A DNA stretch of 64,000 nt from Pseudoroseomonas cervicalis. Lineage in GTDB: Bacteria > Pseudomonadota > Alphaproteobacteria > Acetobacterales > Acetobacteraceae. Shown one piece after another: positions 6,392 through 16,361 of this stretch (its first letter is position 1; each line of letters starts with the position of its first letter). The translations under genes and the position numbers were made by a program. The stretch is from assembly GCF_030818485.1 (NCBI RefSeq), contig NZ_JAUTAJ010000004.1, positions 3,318,501 to 3,382,500 on the forward strand, read 5' to 3'. Under the pieces are notes generated by a model. It searched no databases. It worked only from the letters and a program-made list of their open reading frames with translations, and was not told where the DNA came from.

Positions 6392-9088
6392 ATGCCGCGC
6401 GCTTATGCCGACCGAAATTCCAGCCCCGCCCCCAATTCCGGCGGGCGTCTTGCCGAGGGCGCGCGCCGCTTCGCCTCCCCGGCGATGAAGGCCGCCCTGG
6501 CCCGCCGCGGCGCCGAGCTGGCGGGGCTGGTGCTGGGGCTGGTCGGGCTGGCGCTGCTGGTCGCGCTGGTCAGCTACAATCCGGACGATCCCTCCTTCTC
6601 CAAGGCGACCAACGCCCTGCCCACCAACCTGGCCGGGCCGGTCGGCGCCGTGGTGGCCGATCTGCTGCTGCAGGGCTTCGGCTGGGCGGCGCTGCTGCCG
6701 GTCGGAGTCGCGCTGGGCTGGGCCTGGCGGCTGGCGACGCAGAAGGGGCTGGCCCCCTTCCCCTGGCGGCTGGCCGCCGTGGTGGTGGCGCTGCCCATGC
6801 TCGCCGCCGCCCTCGACTTGGCGCCGCTGCCCGCGGCCTCGGACAATCTGGCCGGGGCGGGCGGTGCCGCCGGCGGCATGCTGGCCGGCTGGATTACCGG
6901 CGGCGTCGCCGGGCTGCTCGGCCCGCTGGGCGGGCTCGGCGCCCAGGTCGGCATCGTGGCGCTGGCCGGCTCGCTCTCCTTCGCCGCCCTCGGCGTGCCG
7001 CTGCTGGCCTGGCGCCAGGCGGGCCGCGCCGCCGGCCATGCCGCGCGCGGCAGCGTCGGGCTGACCGCCAGGCTGGTCCGCCGCAGCGTCGCCGAGCCCG
7101 AGCCGCCCGCCCACTACGCCGCCGCCTGGCGCGAGCAGGAGCGGGACGCGGCGCAGGAGGATGGCCCCAGCATCGGCACCCGCCTGGCCGCGCCCTTCCG
7201 CGCCGTGGGGGGTGCGGTGGGCGGGCTGTTCGCGCGCCGGGCCGAGGCGCCCTCGCCGCAGCTGGCCGCCATGCTGCGCGCCGCCGATGTCGCCGCCGCC
7301 GAGGCCGACCACATGCCGCCGCGCCCCGCCGGCGCGCCCCGCATCCGCCAGGCGCCGCAACTGCCGCCCCCCGGTGCCCGCCGGGCGCCGAGCTTCAGCG
7401 GCCGCCCCGGCCCCGCCGCCGCGCCCGCCCCTTCCCCCGCGCCCTGGGATGAGCCCGAGGAGCAGGAGGAGGAGCTGGAGGAGATGGCCGCGCCGCGCCG
7501 GGCCGAGCCCGAGCCGCCGCGCCGCGCCGAGCGCGCCGCGCCCCCCCCGCGCCGCGCCGCGCCGCCGCCGCCCGAGCCCAGCCAGTTCGAGCTGCCGCCG
7601 CTGGAACTGCTGACCCCGCCGCCGGCCCGCCGCGCCACCGGCCCGACCGAGGAGGCGCTGCAGAACAATGCCCGCCTGCTGGAATCGGTGCTGGAGGATT
7701 ACGGCGTGCGCGGCCGCATCGTCGAGATCCGCCCCGGCCCGGTGGTCACGCTCTATGAGCTGGAACCTGCGCCCGGCACCAAATCCGCCCGCGTCATCGG
7801 GCTTGCCGACGACATCGCCCGCAGCATGTCGGTCATGGCGGTGCGCATCGCGACGGTGCCGGGCCGCAACGTCATCGGCATCGAGCTGCCCAACGCCAAG
7901 CGCGAGACGGTCTATTTCAGCGAGCTGCTGATCACCGACGATTGGAGCCGCCAGAGCGGCAAGCTGCCGCTGGTGCTGGGCAAAGATATCGGCGGCGCGC
8001 CGGTCATCGCCGACCTCGCCCGCATGCCGCATCTGCTGATCGCCGGCACCACCGGCTCGGGCAAGTCGGTCGGCATCAACACCATGATCCTGTCGCTGCT
8101 CTACCGCTTCACGCCGGATGAGTGCCGCTTCATCATGATCGACCCGAAGATGCTGGAGCTGTCGGTCTATGACCGCATCCCGCATCTGCTGGCCCCCGTC
8201 GTCACCGAGCCGCCCAAGGCGATCGGCGCGCTGAAATGGACGGTGCGCGAGATGGAGCGCCGCTACCGCGCCATGTCGCAGCTCGGCGTCCGCAACATCG
8301 GCGGCTACAACGAGAAGGTGCAGGCGGCCCTCGCCCGCGGCGAGGTGCTGACGCGCCGCGTGCAGACCGGCTTCGACCCCGACACCGGCAAGCCGGTCTT
8401 CGAGGACCAGCCCCTGGCCCTCGCCCCCCTGCCGATGATCGTCGTGGTCATCGACGAGATGGCCGACCTGATGCTGGTCGCCGGCAAGGAGATCGAGGCC
8501 GCGGTGCAGCGCCTGGCGCAGATGGCGCGCGCCGCCGGCATCCACGTCATCATGGCGACGCAGCGCCCCTCGGTCGACGTCATCACCGGCACCATCAAGG
8601 CGAACTTCCCGACGCGCATCTCCTTCCAGGTGACGTCGAAGATCGACAGCCGCACCATCCTGGGCGAAATGGGCGCCGAGCAGCTGCTGGGCCAGGGCGA
8701 CATGCTGCACATGGCCGGCGGCGGCCGCGTCAGCCGCGTGCACGGCCCCTTCGTCTCCGACCAGGAGGTGGAGCGCGTCGTCGAATGGCTGCGCGAGCAG
8801 GGCGAGCCCGCCTATATCGAGGAAGTCACCGAGAGCGACGAGGAAGGCGGCGACAACGGCATGTCCGGCATCGCCGGCGCCTCGGATGGCGAGAAGGGCC
8901 TGTTCGACCAGGCCGTCGCCCTGGTGACGCGCGAGGGCAAGGCCTCGACCTCCTTCATCCAGCGCCACCTCTCGATCGGCTACAACCGCGCCGCCAAGCT
9001 GATCGAGCAGATGGAGAAGGAAGGCGTGGTCGGCCCCGCCAACCATGTCGGCAAGCGCGAAGTTTTGGCCCGCCGCACCGACGATTAG
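6392..9088 (+). CDS. ftsK: DNA translocase FtsK
   Basis: The protein has 898 residues. The N-terminal quarter (about 35-210) holds four hydrophobic helices that anchor the protein at the septum. A Pro/Ala/Arg-rich linker follows to about residue 420. The RecA-like motor has Walker A GTTGSGKS at 552-559 and Walker [12 protein letters not shown] with D688 and E689, followed by [12 protein letters not shown]. The C-terminal winged helix (gamma domain, [26 protein letters not shown]) reads KOPS polarity in known FtsK proteins. The family moves chromosome termini and activates XerCD recombination during division. Length and order match full-length alphaproteobacterial FtsK. The gene stands alone. 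A palindromic element starts one base after its stop. Confidence 0.97.
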
Positions 9089-9200
9089 TTTGTCGGGCTG
9101 CCGCGGCCTTCTGGCGAAGCGGGACGCGACACTGGGTCGAAGCGCAGGCTTCCCGGTGTCGCGATCCCGTCTCGGCCCTGACCGGCAGCTGACAAAAAAA
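9089..9200. repeat. Long palindromic REP/MITE-like element (copy 4)
   Basis: This is an imperfect palindrome of about 112 bases. The left end TTTGTCGGGCTGCCG pairs with the right end CGGCAGCTGACAAA. An inner arm CGGGACGCGACACTGGG pairs with CCCGGTGTCGCGATCCCG. Transcribed from either side it would fold into one long hairpin. It sits directly behind the ftsK stop and ends in a run of A, so it could terminate sitD transcription coming from the other strand. Confidence 0.8.
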
Positions 9201-9309
9201 TCTCAGGCTGCGGCCGGCCCGTTGAAAGGCGAGGTGCAGCCCTGGGCCGGAGCCCCGGGCTACAGTGCAGCGACCCCGTTTCGGCCCTGACCGGCAGCGG
9301 ACCGAAAAG
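9201..9309. repeat. Palindromic element (copy 5), overlapping the 3' end of sitD
   Basis: This element abuts copy 4. Its left end TCAGGCTGCGGCCGG and right end GGCCCTGACCGGCAG are diverged versions of the family ends, with GGTGCAGCCC and GTGCAGCGACCCCG inside. Bases 9260-9309 are translated as the last 16 or so residues of SitD. Confidence 0.65.
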
Positions 9310-10186
9310 ACCAGGCGGCGGCGAGCATCAGCGCCGCGATCACCGCCATCATGCCGGCGGCGTTCAGCCCATGGTCCAGCCCCAGCAGATGCGGCACCAG
9401 GATGGCGGCGCCATAGCCGCCGCCGCCCATGGCGATCGCCGCCGCGCCGGAGATCAAGAACTGGTGGCGGTAATTGTCGGTCAGCAGCCGGGCGATGGCG
9501 GCGGGCGCGATCAGCGCCGCGATCACCAGGATCGAGCCCACCGCCCAGAAGGCGGCGACGCAGGCGACCGAGACCAGCACCAGCACCACCAGCGACAGCC
9601 CGCGCGGGGCGAAGCCGATGCTGGCGGCGAAATCCGGGTCGAAGGCGGCCAGCCGCAGCTCCTTCCACAGCAGCGCCAGCCCGGCCAGGGTCAACGCCAG
9701 CACGCCGGCCAGGGTGCGCGTCTCCTGCGGCAGCTCGGCCAGGGCCGCCGGGTCCCAGAGCGAGGACAGGCCGGTGGCGGAGGGCCAGATCAGCGCCTCG
9801 AGCTGGCCATAGAGCACGCAATCGACGTCGAGATCGACGGCGCGCGCGCCGCTCAGCTCGATCATGACGAGGCCAAGGGCGAACAGGCCGGAGAACACCA
9901 CGCCCATCACCGCGCCCGGCTCCAGCCGCGTCAGCCGGCGGATCAGGGCGATCAGCAGCGCCGCCAGCACCGCGGCGCCCATGGCGCCCACCACCATGGG
10001 CAGGGTGGCGCGGCTGCCGGAGACGATGAAGCCCATCACCAGCCCGGGCAGCACCGAATGGCTGATGGCGTCGCCCAGCAGGCTCTGCCGCGTCAGCAGC
10101 AGCAGATTGCCGAGCAGGCCGCAGGCCAGGCAGGCCATGATGGCGGCCAGCAGCGGCGCGAGGTCGAGCTGCAGGAAGGTGGTCAT
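9260..10186 (-). CDS. sitD: Manganese/iron ABC transporter permease (SitD-type)
   Basis: This is a 308-residue inner-membrane permease of the ABC-3 family with about nine hydrophobic segments. Family phrases are present: LLLTRQSLLGDAISHSVLPGLVMGF near residue 40 and AFWAVGSILVIAALIAPAAIARLL in the last third. Its ATG overlaps the stop of the upstream permease gene (ATGA), so it is the last gene of the four-gene operon. The final 16-17 residues (WSFRSAAGQGRNGV onwards) do not look like permease sequence and coincide with a palindromic element, so the native C-terminus has probably been replaced or extended. Confidence 0.93.
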   Translation of the reverse strand: MTTFLQLDLAPLLAAIMACLACGLLGNLLLLTRQSLLGDAISHSVLPGLVMGFIVSGSRATLPMVVGAMGAAVLAALLIALIRRLTRLEPGAVMGVVFSGLFALGLVMIELSGARAVDLDVDCVLYGQLEALIWPSATGLSSLWDPAALAELPQETRTLAGVLALTLAGLALLWKELRLAAFDPDFAASIGFAPRGLSLVVLVLVSVACVAAFWAVGSILVIAALIAPAAIARLLTDNYRHQFLISGAAAIAMGGGGYGAAILVPHLLGLDHGLNAAGMMAVIAALMLAAAWSFRSAAGQGRNGVAAL

Positions 10187-13178: not shown

Positions 13179-13637
13179 ATGGAGCAGGACAAGGACATGG
13201 CGGCCGCCGAGGGCGCCGATGAGGAGGCGCAGGCGCAGGCGCAGGAAGCCGCGCGCCATGCCTCGGCGCGCTCGGCCCGCGCCAGCGCCCTGCTGCATGA
13301 CTATGTGGAGCTGATCGACGATCTGCTGACCACGGGCGGCGAGGCGCGGCCGACCGACATCGCCCGCCGGCTCGGCGTCTCCCACGCCACGGCGATCAAG
13401 GCGGTGGCGCGGCTGAAGCGCGAGGGGCTGGCCCATTCCAAGCCCTATCGCGGCGTCTTCCTGACCGAGGCCGGGCGGGCACTGGCGGCCGAGGTGCGGG
13501 CGCGCCACCGGGTGGTGGTGGATGTGCTGCTGGCGCTCGGCGTGCCGCCCGAGATCGCCGAGATCGATGCCGAGGGCATCGAGCACCATGTCAGCGACGC
13601 GACGCTGGCGGCCTTCGAGAGATTCCTGGGGCGCTAG
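13179..13637 (+). CDS. mntR: Manganese-responsive regulator MntR (DtxR family)
   Basis: The 152-residue protein has an Ala/Glu/Gln-rich N-terminal tail of about 35 residues. A DtxR-type winged helix follows (DYVELIDDLL, EARPTDIARRLGVSHATAIKAVARLKREGL, then the wing LTEAGRALA). The dimerisation and metal-binding helix region contains RHRVVVDVLLALGVPPEIAEIDAEGIEHHVS, where the HR, the Asp/Glu cluster and EHHVS are metal-ligand positions in MntR proteins. It lacks the SH3 domain of DtxR/IdeR, as expected for MntR. It is transcribed away from sitABCD, which fits a manganese-dependent repressor of that operon. The ATG has AGGGG 7-8 bases upstream. Confidence 0.92.
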   Translation: MEQDKDMAAAEGADEEAQAQAQEAARHASARSARASALLHDYVELIDDLLTTGGEARPTDIARRLGVSHATAIKAVARLKREGLAHSKPYRGVFLTEAGRALAAEVRARHRVVVDVLLALGVPPEIAEIDAEGIEHHVSDATLAAFERFLGR

Positions 13638-13654
13638 GAAGGGTGAGAGCCAAC

Positions 13655-13820
13655 CCATCTATCCCCAAGATGGCTTGACCATTTGCTATTTCGGTATCAG
13701 CATTGGAACGCTCCTGAAAAGGAGCTGCGAAGAACCCTGAGAAGCGGTTCTGGTGCTGGTTGCCGCCGGATGGTGGTGAGCTCGATTAAGGTGGCGCAAG
13801 CCACCGTGTCGCGTGCCACC
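13655..13820. other. Cluster of short hairpins, possible structured RNA
   Basis: The 243-base gap between mntR and the next gene is AT-richer than its surroundings. It holds CCATCT/AGATGG (13655-13673), GCTCCT-GAAA-AGGAGC (13710-13725), GAACC/GGTTC (13732-13750) and GGTGGC-GCAA-GCCACC (13790-13805). Two of the four have perfect 6-base stems closed by GNRA tetraloops, which is typical of folded RNA rather than DNA operators. The first hairpin may simply terminate mntR. No known RNA family was recognised. Confidence 0.35.
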
Positions 13821-13880
13821 CACATTTAATTGGGTGAGTCCTGCGCTGGAGTCGGTTCTCCTTTTGAGGAGCAACCGCCT

Positions 13881-15239
13881 ATGAAGCCCGCCAAAATTAT
13901 TTTGAAATTCGAAGTCCTCGCTGACCAAGTCCATGGTCCGGTGAAGCGCTTGATCGGATTCGTCTCGGCCAGAAGTATGCTTGGACTATTTGACGCTGCC
14001 GATTTGGATGCAAATCCGCGTTCCGCCAAAGCCGGCTCAGTCACCCAGGCAATCATGCAGAGCATTCAGGCCGATGCGGATGTCTTTCCGTTCAAAACGA
14101 AGGGTATCCTTATCGGATGTGCCAAGCACGAGATCCTGCAGCGGCACCGTGTTGAACTACGTTTTGGTGAGCCTCATCTCGAGGGCGTCCTCGATGGTGG
14201 GCATAACATGCTGGCCATTGGAACCTACATCCTTCAAACAGCACTCGGAGACGAGAAGGTCGTCAAGCGTATAAAGCTCTGGGATGATTTCAAGAAAATT
14301 TGGGCCGAGAACCGCGCTGCGATCGAGGAAATCCGTAATGATTTGGCCTTTCTGGTCCCCGTCGAAGTGCTTGTTCCGGCGGGAGATAGTGAGGACATTC
14401 TGATAGATTTCCGATCTCATCTCTTTGATATTTGCTCGGCCCGCAATAATAATGCCGAGCTTTCTTTGGAAACGAAGGCTAATCAGAAAGGATTTTACGA
14501 AGAGATCAAGAAAGCCTTGCCCAAGGCCATAGCTGATCGCATCGAGTGGAAGTCCAATGAGGCCGGTGGTGACGTAAAGGTTCGCGATATCATCGCGCTT
14601 AGCTGGATTCCGCTGCGTCTGGTCCAACTCCCAAAGCATGTGCGCGTGCCGGTTCCGCAGAACATCTATCGGAACAAGGGCGAATGCGCGAAGCTCTTCG
14701 ACGATCTGATGAGCGATGCGGGAGTGTCTAAGGCGGTTAACGGCGCCATGCATGAGTTGATCGATCCGGCGATCAAAAGCGCGATCGCCATTCTCGGCGA
14801 CCTGCCGGGCCTCTACGACAAGATTTATGCCGAATTCCCAGCTGCCTACAATAAAGTCGGAGACTTCGGCCGAATGAGTGTTGTCCGAATCTACGACGTA
14901 AATCGCAAGACTGACGGGAACCGGAAGTATCTCCGCTCCCAGCCCGAGACACATTTTACCGAGAAGCCGGTTAAGTACAGTTACCCTGACGGGTTCATCA
15001 TCCCGCTCGTCTACGGATTGAGTGCTTTGATGGATGTCAGGGAAGGTAAGGTGGTGTGGAAAACGGATCCGAAGGCCTTTCTCGACAAAAATTTTGCCGA
15101 CATTGCCCGAGCTTATCGCATTGTCCTGGAGATGGCGAAGTTCGATCCACAGAAGATTGGTAAGGGGGAGTCCTCTTACGACTTTGCATTCGGTGAATTC
15201 GAGAAGGCTTTGCTGAAACAGCAGGCGGCTGCGGCCTGA
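13881..15239 (+). CDS. AIPR/DGQHR-like protein, possible abortive-infection gene
   Basis: The 452-residue protein starts at an ATG with GAGGAG 9 bases upstream; the frame extends 17 codons further back without a convincing start. Composition and codon use (many AAA, GAT and ATT codons) differ sharply from the rest of the window, which suggests transfer. Visible features are GVLDGGHNMLAIGTYI with D105-H108, then PVEVLVP and DICSARNNNAELS (183 onwards), then a charged helical region. A DG(Q/G)H motif followed by a strand and an ARN..N segment resembles the AIPR (abortive phage infection) and DndB/DGQHR families. That match is by eye, and I would not give a mechanism. The gene stands alone between housekeeping loci. 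Confidence 0.8.
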   Translation: MKPAKIILKFEVLADQVHGPVKRLIGFVSARSMLGLFDAADLDANPRSAKAGSVTQAIMQSIQADADVFPFKTKGILIGCAKHEILQRHRVELRFGEPHLEGVLDGGHNMLAIGTYILQTALGDEKVVKRIKLWDDFKKIWAENRAAIEEIRNDLAFLVPVEVLVPAGDSEDILIDFRSHLFDICSARNNNAELSLETKANQKGFYEEIKKALPKAIADRIEWKSNEAGGDVKVRDIIALSWIPLRLVQLPKHVRVPVPQNIYRNKGECAKLFDDLMSDAGVSKAVNGAMHELIDPAIKSAIAILGDLPGLYDKIYAEFPAAYNKVGDFGRMSVVRIYDVNRKTDGNRKYLRSQPETHFTEKPVKYSYPDGFIIPLVYGLSALMDVREGKVVWKTDPKAFLDKNFADIARAYRIVLEMAKFDPQKIGKGESSYDFAFGEFEKALLKQQAAAA

Positions 15240-15248
15240 CATTGTCAG

Positions 15249-15279
15249 AGGGGCGGCGCCTAGAACGGGTGCCGCCCTC
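15249..15279 (+). terminator. Hairpin terminator after the AIPR-like gene
   Basis: GGGCGGC (15251-15257) pairs with GCCGCCC (15271-15277) about 10 bases after the stop codon. There is no clear T-run. The remaining 90 bases to the next gene are AT-richer like the island, and I see nothing else in them. Confidence 0.55.
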
Positions 15280-15371
15280 ATCGCTGTCTGAATGTGTATT
15301 TAATCAGGAAGGCGCTTATAATTCCCAGACACGCTGCGCCAGCGGATCGTCTAGGGGGCGCCCCGCCGGAT

Positions 15372-16361
15372 TCAGGCGGAGAGCGCCCGGGCGAACACCG
15401 CCGGGTCGACATTGCCGCCGCTCAGCACGATGCCGGTGGTCTTCCCCTGCGCGGGCAGCTTGCCGGCCAGCAGCGCCGCCAGCGCCACCGCGCCGCCCGG
15501 CTCCACCACCAGCTTCAGCGCCTCGAAGGCGAAGCGCATGGCGCGGAACACCTCCTCCGGCGTCACCACGGCGGCGCCCTTCAGCCGGGGCTGGTTGACG
15601 GCGAAGGTCAGCGCGCCGGGGCGCATCGACAGCAGCGCGTCGCACAGCCCCGCCCCCTTGCCGTCATTGGCCAGCCGCTCCCCGGCGGCGAGCGAGCGGG
15701 CGGTGTCGTCCCAGCCCTCCGGCTCCACCGCCCAGACCGCGGTGGCGGGGGAGGCGCCCTCGACCGCGAGGGCGCAGCCGGCGATCAGCCCGCCGCCGCC
15801 GGTGCAGACCGCCAGCGTGTCGAGGGCGAGGCCGGCCTCGGCCGCATCCTCGATCAGCTCCAGCGCCAGCGTGCCCTGGCCGGCCACCACATCGGGGTGG
15901 TCGAAGGGCGGGATGATGCTGGCGCCGCGCTCGGCGGCCAGCCTGTCCGCCAGCACTTCCCGGTCGGTGGTGGCGCGGTCGAAGAAGGTGATCTCGGGGC
16001 CCCAGCGGCGGGTGCTCTCGACCTTGATGGAGGGCGCGTCCTGCGGCATGGCGATCAGCGCCCGCACCCCCTCGGCCGCGGCGGCGCAGGCCACCGCCTG
16101 GCCGTGATTGCCCGAGGAATGGGTGACGACGCCGGCCGCGCGCTGCGCCGCATCCAGCTTCAGCACCGCGTTGGTGGCGCCGCGGAACTTGAAGCTGCCG
16201 GTGCGCTGCAGCGGCTCGGGCTTCACCAGCACGGTGCCGCCGGCCAGCTCGTCCAGCAGCGGATGGCGCAGCATCGGCGTGCGGACGACACGGCCGCGCA
16301 GCCGCTCCGCCGCCTCGCGGACATCCTGGTGGCTGGGCAGGCGGGGCGGGATGGCGTTCAT
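15372..16361 (-). CDS. PLP-dependent threonine/serine dehydratase family protein
   Basis: This 329-residue type II PLP enzyme has the Schiff-base lysine in GSFKFRGA (K58), the substrate loop THSSGNHGQAVA and the phosphate-binding loop CTGGGGLIAG. The length excludes the C-terminal ACT domain of biosynthetic IlvA, so it is closer to catabolic threonine dehydratase, serine racemase or hydroxyaspartate dehydratase. Its ATG overlaps the stop of the upstream FAD oxidoreductase (ATGA), so the two form one operon. The pairing with a DAO-type oxidase suggests amino-acid catabolism; the exact substrate is not determined. Confidence 0.9.
   Translation of the reverse strand: MNAIPPRLPSHQDVREAAERLRGRVVRTPMLRHPLLDELAGGTVLVKPEPLQRTGSFKFRGATNAVLKLDAAQRAAGVVTHSSGNHGQAVACAAAAEGVRALIAMPQDAPSIKVESTRRWGPEITFFDRATTDREVLADRLAAERGASIIPPFDHPDVVAGQGTLALELIEDAAEAGLALDTLAVCTGGGGLIAGCALAVEGASPATAVWAVEPEGWDDTARSLAAGERLANDGKGAGLCDALLSMRPGALTFAVNQPRLKGAAVVTPEEVFRAMRFAFEALKLVVEPGGAVALAALLAGKLPAQGKTTGIVLSGGNVDPAVFARALSA

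Follow-up and report, generated by a model that had tools for sequence, protein, structure and literature searches.

Among the systems so far described, the following are among those closest to the locus considered here. The AIPR proteins (AbiU1; PF10592) have been reported in restriction operons since 2008, an association also given in a further study that assigns them a HEPN RNase, and these accounts, in their accessible portions, are predictions rather than a tested mechanism (PMC2292703; PMC3506569). In the AbiF/RCd22 system of Clostridioides difficile, an RNA of about 100 nucleotides (nt; RF03085) neutralizes the protein, and the available part of the source gives the order as promoter, repeated-motif RNA, terminator, and abortive-infection gene (PMC12373285). 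The type III toxin-antitoxin systems (ToxIN) likewise have an RNA with repeated elements, the pseudoknot ToxI, upstream of the effector gene. Here, we analyze a 64,000-nt stretch of Pseudoroseomonas cervicalis DNA (contig NZ_JAUTAJ010000004.1, positions 3,318,501 to 3,382,500; hereafter the window, whose numbering is used throughout), in which a gene for an AIPR-like protein of 452 amino acids (aa) at 13881..15239 on the plus strand is directly preceded by a structured, conserved RNA with a promoter-like site ahead of it (13675-13880), neither of which an earlier note on the sequence had seen. We propose, with a probability of roughly one half, that the two constitute a horizontally acquired module of the abortive-infection type, in which an AIPR-like effector is restrained by a cis-encoded controlling leader RNA.

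A conserved leader RNA upstream of the gene

The leader was recognized from hairpins that recur when about 280-300 nt upstream of the relatives of the gene are read, and its layout comprises three hairpins, many with G-N-A-N loops, followed by a hairpin holding the Shine-Dalgarno sequence. Across 89 loci (duplicates included), hairpins with G-N-A-N loops occur 196 times within 260 nt upstream of the gene, as against 39.8 in shuffles, which here and in the scans for long-range duplexes, terminators, and promoters preserve base composition only; the control stretches are not devoid of them, with up to four per locus downstream and up to three within the gene. In the window, the leader core with hairpins 1-3 (13710..13778, plus strand, as are all the features of the transcript given below) is matched with 51.4 bits (E=2.9e-9) by R1, a covariance model built from 16 leaders with the window excluded. 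In the family, the pairs change on both sides at six of six positions in hairpin 1 (13710..13725, GCTCCTGAAAAGGAGC, loop GAAA), four of six in hairpin 2 (13732..13750, GAACC...GGTTC, whose loop and 3' arm double as part of a long-range helix discussed below), and all five modelled positions in hairpin 3 (13760..13779, loop GGAT). An additional hairpin seen in the sequence, with a GCAA loop (13790..13805), lies outside the covariance model.

R1 returns 51 matches at E<0.01 from 92 sources amounting to 1.57 Mb, with some places represented twice, and every one of them is directly upstream of the gene. In 49 aligned R1 matches, 95.7% of the cells pair (80.0% after shuffling). Both partners vary in 15 of the 17 pairs, where shuffling gives a mean of 9.6 and sliding a maximum of 11, and covariation is scored at 0.589 as opposed to 0.274; these values come from an alignment fitted to R1 and from sequences related to each other, and the pair counts include a minus-strand match in locus L010 (3361-3411; E 0.063, 0.034) that we judge to be due to chance. 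Together with R2, a second covariance model built for the Firmicutes and Actinobacteria leaders, a leader is detected at E<0.01 in 56 of 84 non-duplicate loci, half of these (28) being training sequences; of the 28 loci lacking a model-supported leader, two are short of upstream DNA and several have similar hairpins by eye. The duplicate places (L001/window, L002/L006, L086/L003, L087/L010, and L089-L091) were removed for the 84-locus counts and persist, where present, in the raw hairpin, R1-match, and terminator counts. We hold it to be nearly certain that the conserved structure of the leader is real.

A scan of 200 genomes of the family with R1 matched three (G000, G036, and G213; the first two carry the gene) and revealed no clear instance of a leader without the gene. 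The one doubtful case, a weak match in genome G284 (locus L095, 30.2 bits, E 4e-4 per genome, 385 genomes), was set aside as chance, no related protein having matched in that genome. Rfam 15, run on the leader of the window, on 16 loci, and on two leaders that diverge from the rest, recovers no family at its gathering score, the abiF RNA motif included; the sub-threshold matches to CC2171 (E 4.7), mir-51 (E 0.61), and L20_leader (E 0.41) were treated as chance. We also considered a CsrA-type decoy acting via GGA loops, which is disfavored given that many of the loops are GAAA, GCAA, or GAGA. A literature search, with supplements and most subscription journals beyond its reach, found no structured RNA ahead of AIPR genes; the leader could still have been detected earlier without being labelled as such, because PMC8040213, so far as its accessible part goes, holds thousands of candidate RNAs.

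Deviations from this arrangement were also seen. The Corynebacterium loci L083 and L084, with homologues at 36% identity, have no hairpin of the scanned type upstream and may mark a loss or replacement of the RNA. In L057, a second R2 match (8438-8492, E 0.0017) that looks degenerate sits beside a normal leader-gene pair and is followed by an open reading frame (ORF; 8648-9442) that we take from its translation to be a SAM-methyltransferase-like protein; this second leader is probably the leftover of a decayed duplication.

A sigma-70-like promoter is predicted at 13675..13703, with the -35 element TTGACC (13675-13680), a 17-bp spacer, and a weak -10 element (13698-13703) ending 6 nt short of hairpin 1. 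Among 48 leaders, an exact TTGAC is found ahead of hairpin 1 in 36, the -10 element lies 5-9 nt from hairpin 1 in 38 (6 nt in 20), and the mean consensus score is 8.56, as opposed to 7.05 when shuffled. From these positions, hairpin 1 is probably the first element of the RNA.

Two competing folds and the proposed control of the effector

The leader also forms a predicted long-range helix, PL, in which a 5' strand at 13739..13753 (GAGAAGCGGTTCTGG) pairs with a 3' strand at 13846..13860 (CTGGAGTCGGTTCTC), with 14 of the 15 positions pairing in the window. The 5' strand takes in the loop of hairpin 2, its 3' arm, and the UGG or CGG that follows, and the 3' strand is the segment just ahead of and including the anti-Shine-Dalgarno strand, thus overlapping one arm of the hairpin (13854..13876) that, according to the sequence and constrained folding, sequesters the Shine-Dalgarno sequence (GAGGAG, 13866-13871). 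In 48 leaders, the mean energy of the long-range duplex is -17.2 kcal/mol with the leader's own downstream segment and -12.9 with the segments of other loci, the own segment attaining a mean rank of 7.3 of 47. In 44 of these leaders at most 5 of 100 shuffles match the own duplex, the exceptions being the window itself (7), L013 (6), L053 (12), and L024 (22), and in L007 and L043 the duplex with the own segment is weaker than the average foreign one.

Since PL shares bases with both hairpin 2 and the Shine-Dalgarno hairpin, the leader has two mutually exclusive folds, namely fold A with hairpin 2 and fold B with PL. When each is forced upon 47 leaders (L036, where no start was found, being left out), the mean energy difference is 0.03 kcal/mol, with single leaders differing by up to about 8 kcal/mol in either direction; the Shine-Dalgarno sequence is unpaired at 0.19 in fold A versus 0.44 in fold B and is freer in fold B in 41 of the 47. 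Both folds are rare in the unconstrained ensemble of the window leader (0.00 and 0.05), which leaves the balance between them unsettled for this particular copy. Taken across the family, these sequence-based comparisons make it quite likely that the leader acts as an on/off switch for protein synthesis.

We propose that fold A, with hairpin 2 formed and the Shine-Dalgarno sequence held in its own hairpin, would be the OFF state, and that fold B would be the ON state, hairpin 2 giving up its loop and 3' arm to pairing with the segment that includes the anti-Shine-Dalgarno strand, so that the Shine-Dalgarno sequence is left free. The protein, or a ribonucleoprotein (RNP) containing it, might bind the repeated hairpin loops and stabilize fold A, whereby the protein would repress its own synthesis; for direct binding of the leader by the protein we regard the chances as evenly balanced. 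Phage infection would then deplete the free protein or damage the RNP, the leader would flip to fold B, and the ensuing burst of the effector would arrest the cell, in some cases as a back-up to a restriction system. The comparisons support an acquired cassette, the kinship with AIPR, the leader RNA, its competing folds, and defence company in a minority of loci; RNA binding, the trigger, and toxicity are what we infer in addition. From a leader with two exclusive folds one can predict which changes would activate or silence the effector, and such a leader hints at a part for the RNA in sensing.

A variant of this arrangement involves terminators. A terminator-like site is present in 23 of the 89 upstream stretches, compared to 3.05 expected from shuffles, and in 14 loci it lies 72-99 nt before the gene. 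These 14 are titled Firmicutes or Actinobacteria, except for one metagenome-assembled genome titled Muribaculum, and carriers with the terminator include Selenomonas ruminantium and Adlercreutzia mucosicola. The models support a leader in 9 of the 14, those without one being L054 and L065 (in both, the contig is too short), L046, L079, and L080. In some members of these two phyla, the terminator between the hairpins and the gene might serve as a transcriptional brake and free the hairpins as a separate small RNA. In six of the loci (L046, L048, L051, L055, L063, and L065), the stems of the terminator-like sites, about 72-89 nt before the gene, have a GCCGAC- or CCAAC-like 5' arm, and these arms are alike across distant hosts beyond what a terminator needs.

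The promoter at the hairpins, the repetition of hairpins with one type of loop, and the terminator-like site of the 14 loci together reproduce the layout of RCd22-abiF as it is described in the accessible text of PMC12373285, and some Firmicutes and Actinobacteria copies of the present family have that layout. These features are also what one would expect if the RNA were instead a trans-acting antitoxin or scaffold whose hairpins keep the AIPR-like protein inactive within an RNP, as ToxI does with ToxN and RCd22 with AbiF, the long-range helix being secondary. However, as far as the scan shows, the window and the majority of proteobacterial copies are without a terminator of this kind, the conserved helix onto the anti-Shine-Dalgarno strand, which sets the present leader apart from RCd22, points to control in cis, and Pfam gives no match to Abi_2 (AbiD/F) in the window protein or in 23 members of its family. 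We consider this trans-acting reading rather unlikely. By analogy, AbiF/RCd22 can be regarded as the nearest working counterpart, which the present system resembles in layout without being a member of it, having neither an Abi_2 nor an abiF RNA match; from ToxIN it differs in that its leader consists of separate hairpins, as opposed to a pseudoknot, and in that no ToxN match is listed for its protein.

Were the cis-controlled module we prefer to be borne out, the present family would join ToxN and AbiF as another protein family engaged in RNA-restrained abortive infection, with a structured RNA that occurs in three bacterial phyla and has no Rfam 15 match where it was scanned. A more ambitious reading, toward which we remain skeptical, would see in it a novel class of immune effectors under the control of RNA, with an AIPR/ParB-like protein on a conserved hairpin array sharing G-N-A-N loops, an RNA that is at once antitoxin and a bistable sensor of the loss of the complex upon infection, and a role as a fail-safe for restriction operons in Proteobacteria, Actinobacteria, and Firmicutes.

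The encoded protein and its cassette

The 452-residue gene reported in the earlier note is read from an ATG at 13881, with the open frame itself reaching back to a TTG at 13830, and the motifs DGGH (residues 105-108) and DICSARNNN (183-191), from which that note had guessed at an AIPR- or DndB-type protein, both fall within blocks that are conserved in an alignment of 23 family members. The AIPR part of the guess is upheld at the level of remote homology. The PF10592 profile matches the window protein with 14.9 bits (E=0.022), which is under the Pfam gathering score of 25 bits, and 19 of the 23 relatives at E<=1 (best 4.2e-5); a precomputed PF10592 annotation is carried by one (P0098, at 55% identity) of the 120 homologues listed. 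By tblastn, two proteins annotated as AIPR are hit at E 6e-7 and 1e-6, and a profile-profile comparison with an annotated AIPR protein using hhalign gives a probability of 98.9 over 353 columns. Judged from these searches, the window protein is a remote AIPR relative, with homology across most of its length and the LDGGH and ARN motifs in common, which nonetheless falls below the Pfam cut-off. A further difference from annotated AIPR genes is that two of these, found on Firmicutes plasmids (L118:1522-3094 and L119:3525-5059), show no R2 match and have a divergent helix-turn-helix regulator gene where the leader would be, a hint that a regulatory protein and a regulatory RNA may stand in for one another upstream of AIPR-type genes. 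Membership in DndB/DGQHR proper is not supported, as no DndB profile of Pfam, NCBIfam, or PADLOC matches and the motif reads DGGHN, with DGQHR absent.

The PADLOC protein models as a whole return zero families for the window protein at E<=10, and no confident match to a non-defence family, which the earlier note had named as evidence against it, occurred. No match to ToxN is listed from Pfam, NCBIfam, or PADLOC, a ToxN-like endoribonuclease still being compatible with this result. Foldseek finds nothing at E<=0.001. Fold comparisons place the ParB/Srx-like proteins SspE, ParB-N, Noc, BrxU/GmrSD, and a DndBCDE-DndI entry, several of which act in defence, alongside the protein, all with low Z, and the rows covering its helical C-terminal part reach 4.4; a ParB/Srx-like N-terminal part (about residues 16-192) followed by a mostly helical C-terminal part is a possible reading. 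An NTP (nucleoside triphosphate)-dependent ParB/DUF262-like domain would be expected to function as a sensor or switch. No nuclease domain was recognized in the window protein and no HEPN profile matches it; R352-x5-H358 fits the R-X4-6-H spacing of HEPN, with each residue at least 90% conserved in the 23-member alignment, R352 being missing in P0104 and H358 replaced by K in P0072 and P0077.

The gene and leader reside in an insert of 1.73 kb (13638..15371, no strand assigned) that is foreign to the surrounding chromosome, in agreement with the AT-richer composition described in the earlier note: the GC fraction is 0.523 in the gene, 0.535 in the insert, 0.717 in the window, and about 0.72-0.76 in the flanking 500-bp stretches. 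The insert is bounded by what we take from their translations to be an mntR-like gene (13179-13637) and a threonine-dehydratase-like gene (15372-16361). By blastn and pairwise alignment, the same two genes, with 94-95% identical DNA, enclose 133 bp of other sequence in a same-genus genome (G010, locus L097), and on this account 13638-15371 is an acquired cassette. G010 carries its own copy of the gene at a different place, and the source genome has a single copy. The other long ORFs of the insert overlap the 452-aa gene in other frames, and none of their translations, which were read without a profile search, resembles a transposase or integrase, as the earlier note had found. Mobility by the gene's own means is not favored: neither target duplications nor terminal repeats are visible by eye at the insert edges, where no repeat search was run. 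Past the gene, a GC-rich hairpin (15250..15278, -25.4 kcal/mol when folded) without a T-run is a possible transcript end. The description of the island as single-gene is incomplete because of the conserved, probably regulatory RNA directly upstream of it.

The distribution of the gene is sporadic: it is present in four of 98 genomes, a count that takes in the genome of the window and a 71-residue fragment, and in two of 385 genomes of the window's class, namely the window's own and the 71-residue fragment. With the site empty in the nearest alignable relative, the conserved synteny that the earlier note had regarded as contrary evidence was not observed. At least 1304 homologues score at E<=0.001 (8000 candidates scored), and the loci compared, for which 80 of 108 relatives were taken in, are titled Alpha-, Beta-, and Gammaproteobacteria, Actinobacteria, Firmicutes, and a few others. 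Homologues also occur on four Roseomonas mucosa plasmids; in two of these, the homologue is near insertion sequence (IS) transposases (IS6, IS5, and IS3 in L116; IS6 in L117) and close to a PIN-domain gene, with CcdAB further away in L116. We discounted a viral origin, as 50,697 phage records contain no match to the gene and, of the seven loci on IMG/VR contigs, two have upstream sequence identical to that of the cellular loci L003 and L010 and three (L089-L091), at 33% identity, lack the leader.

Restriction and defence genes in the neighborhood

Within flanks of up to 10 kb a side, a PLD-SNF2 helicase relative is encoded in 14 of the 84 loci and both this helicase and a type IIG methylase in nine, with L007 and L013, two of the nine, having supplied the queries; L041 additionally has a methylase piece at the contig edge. 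The search followed the sighting of that pair, and the DNA of many contigs ends before the full flank. Of 190 genomes in the class to which the window belongs, six have a relative of the methylase (E<=1e-30), and for this reason the adjacency looks far above chance, as judged without a formal test. Variants of this association are seen in L006, L046, and L018, with type IIG models at E 4e-279 and 1e-245 and BrxHI-like and HKD+Snf2 helicases. A profile scan of 140 of 243 neighbor ORFs predicted for the 61 loci having 2.5 kb or more to either side (the longest ORFs being among those left out for size, with some scanned separately, and the simple caller used being liable to err in GC-rich DNA), yields PADLOC matches to DndB, DndC, PbeC, DrmMII, a nucleotide cyclase, and others, those to SspA/DndA perhaps being housekeeping cysteine desulfurases. 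A MADS protein is encoded near L027.

Company of this kind is shared with AIPR, for which it is in print in the available parts of PMC2292703 and PMC3506569. The defence link suggested in the earlier note is accordingly sustained by a minority of the relatives, while the window copy itself stands alone, an orphan with no restriction partner, as no related methylase was found in its genome. On this comparative evidence, a role in defence is likely for the module.

The same adjacency, including same-strand neighbors at gaps of 0-33 bp in L009 and L010, together with the possible ParB-like N-terminal part, would fit a protein that is no toxin at all, such as an accessory restriction subunit, with the leader as a plain autoregulatory or environment-sensing element. 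This is, however, an improbable alternative, given that the gene also occurs alone, as in the window, and that the RNA accompanies it irrespective of such neighbors. The lack of a partner in the window's genome and the sporadic distribution could in turn mean that the window gene is an ordinary orphan left by a restriction island in decay, its leader doing no more than adjusting translation, and has no present defence role, against which stand the intact 452-aa frame, aligned through the conserved blocks, and the intact leader at E=2.9e-9; we give this possibility very little weight. The RNA-restrained effector module remains our preferred reading of the locus.

In three of the helicase-linked loci, an ORF of 360-457 aa with no Pfam match lies between the AIPR-like and helicase genes (L044:11760-13130, L048:11964-13043, and L018:11377-12630), and the one in L018 overlaps the stop codon of the AIPR-like gene.
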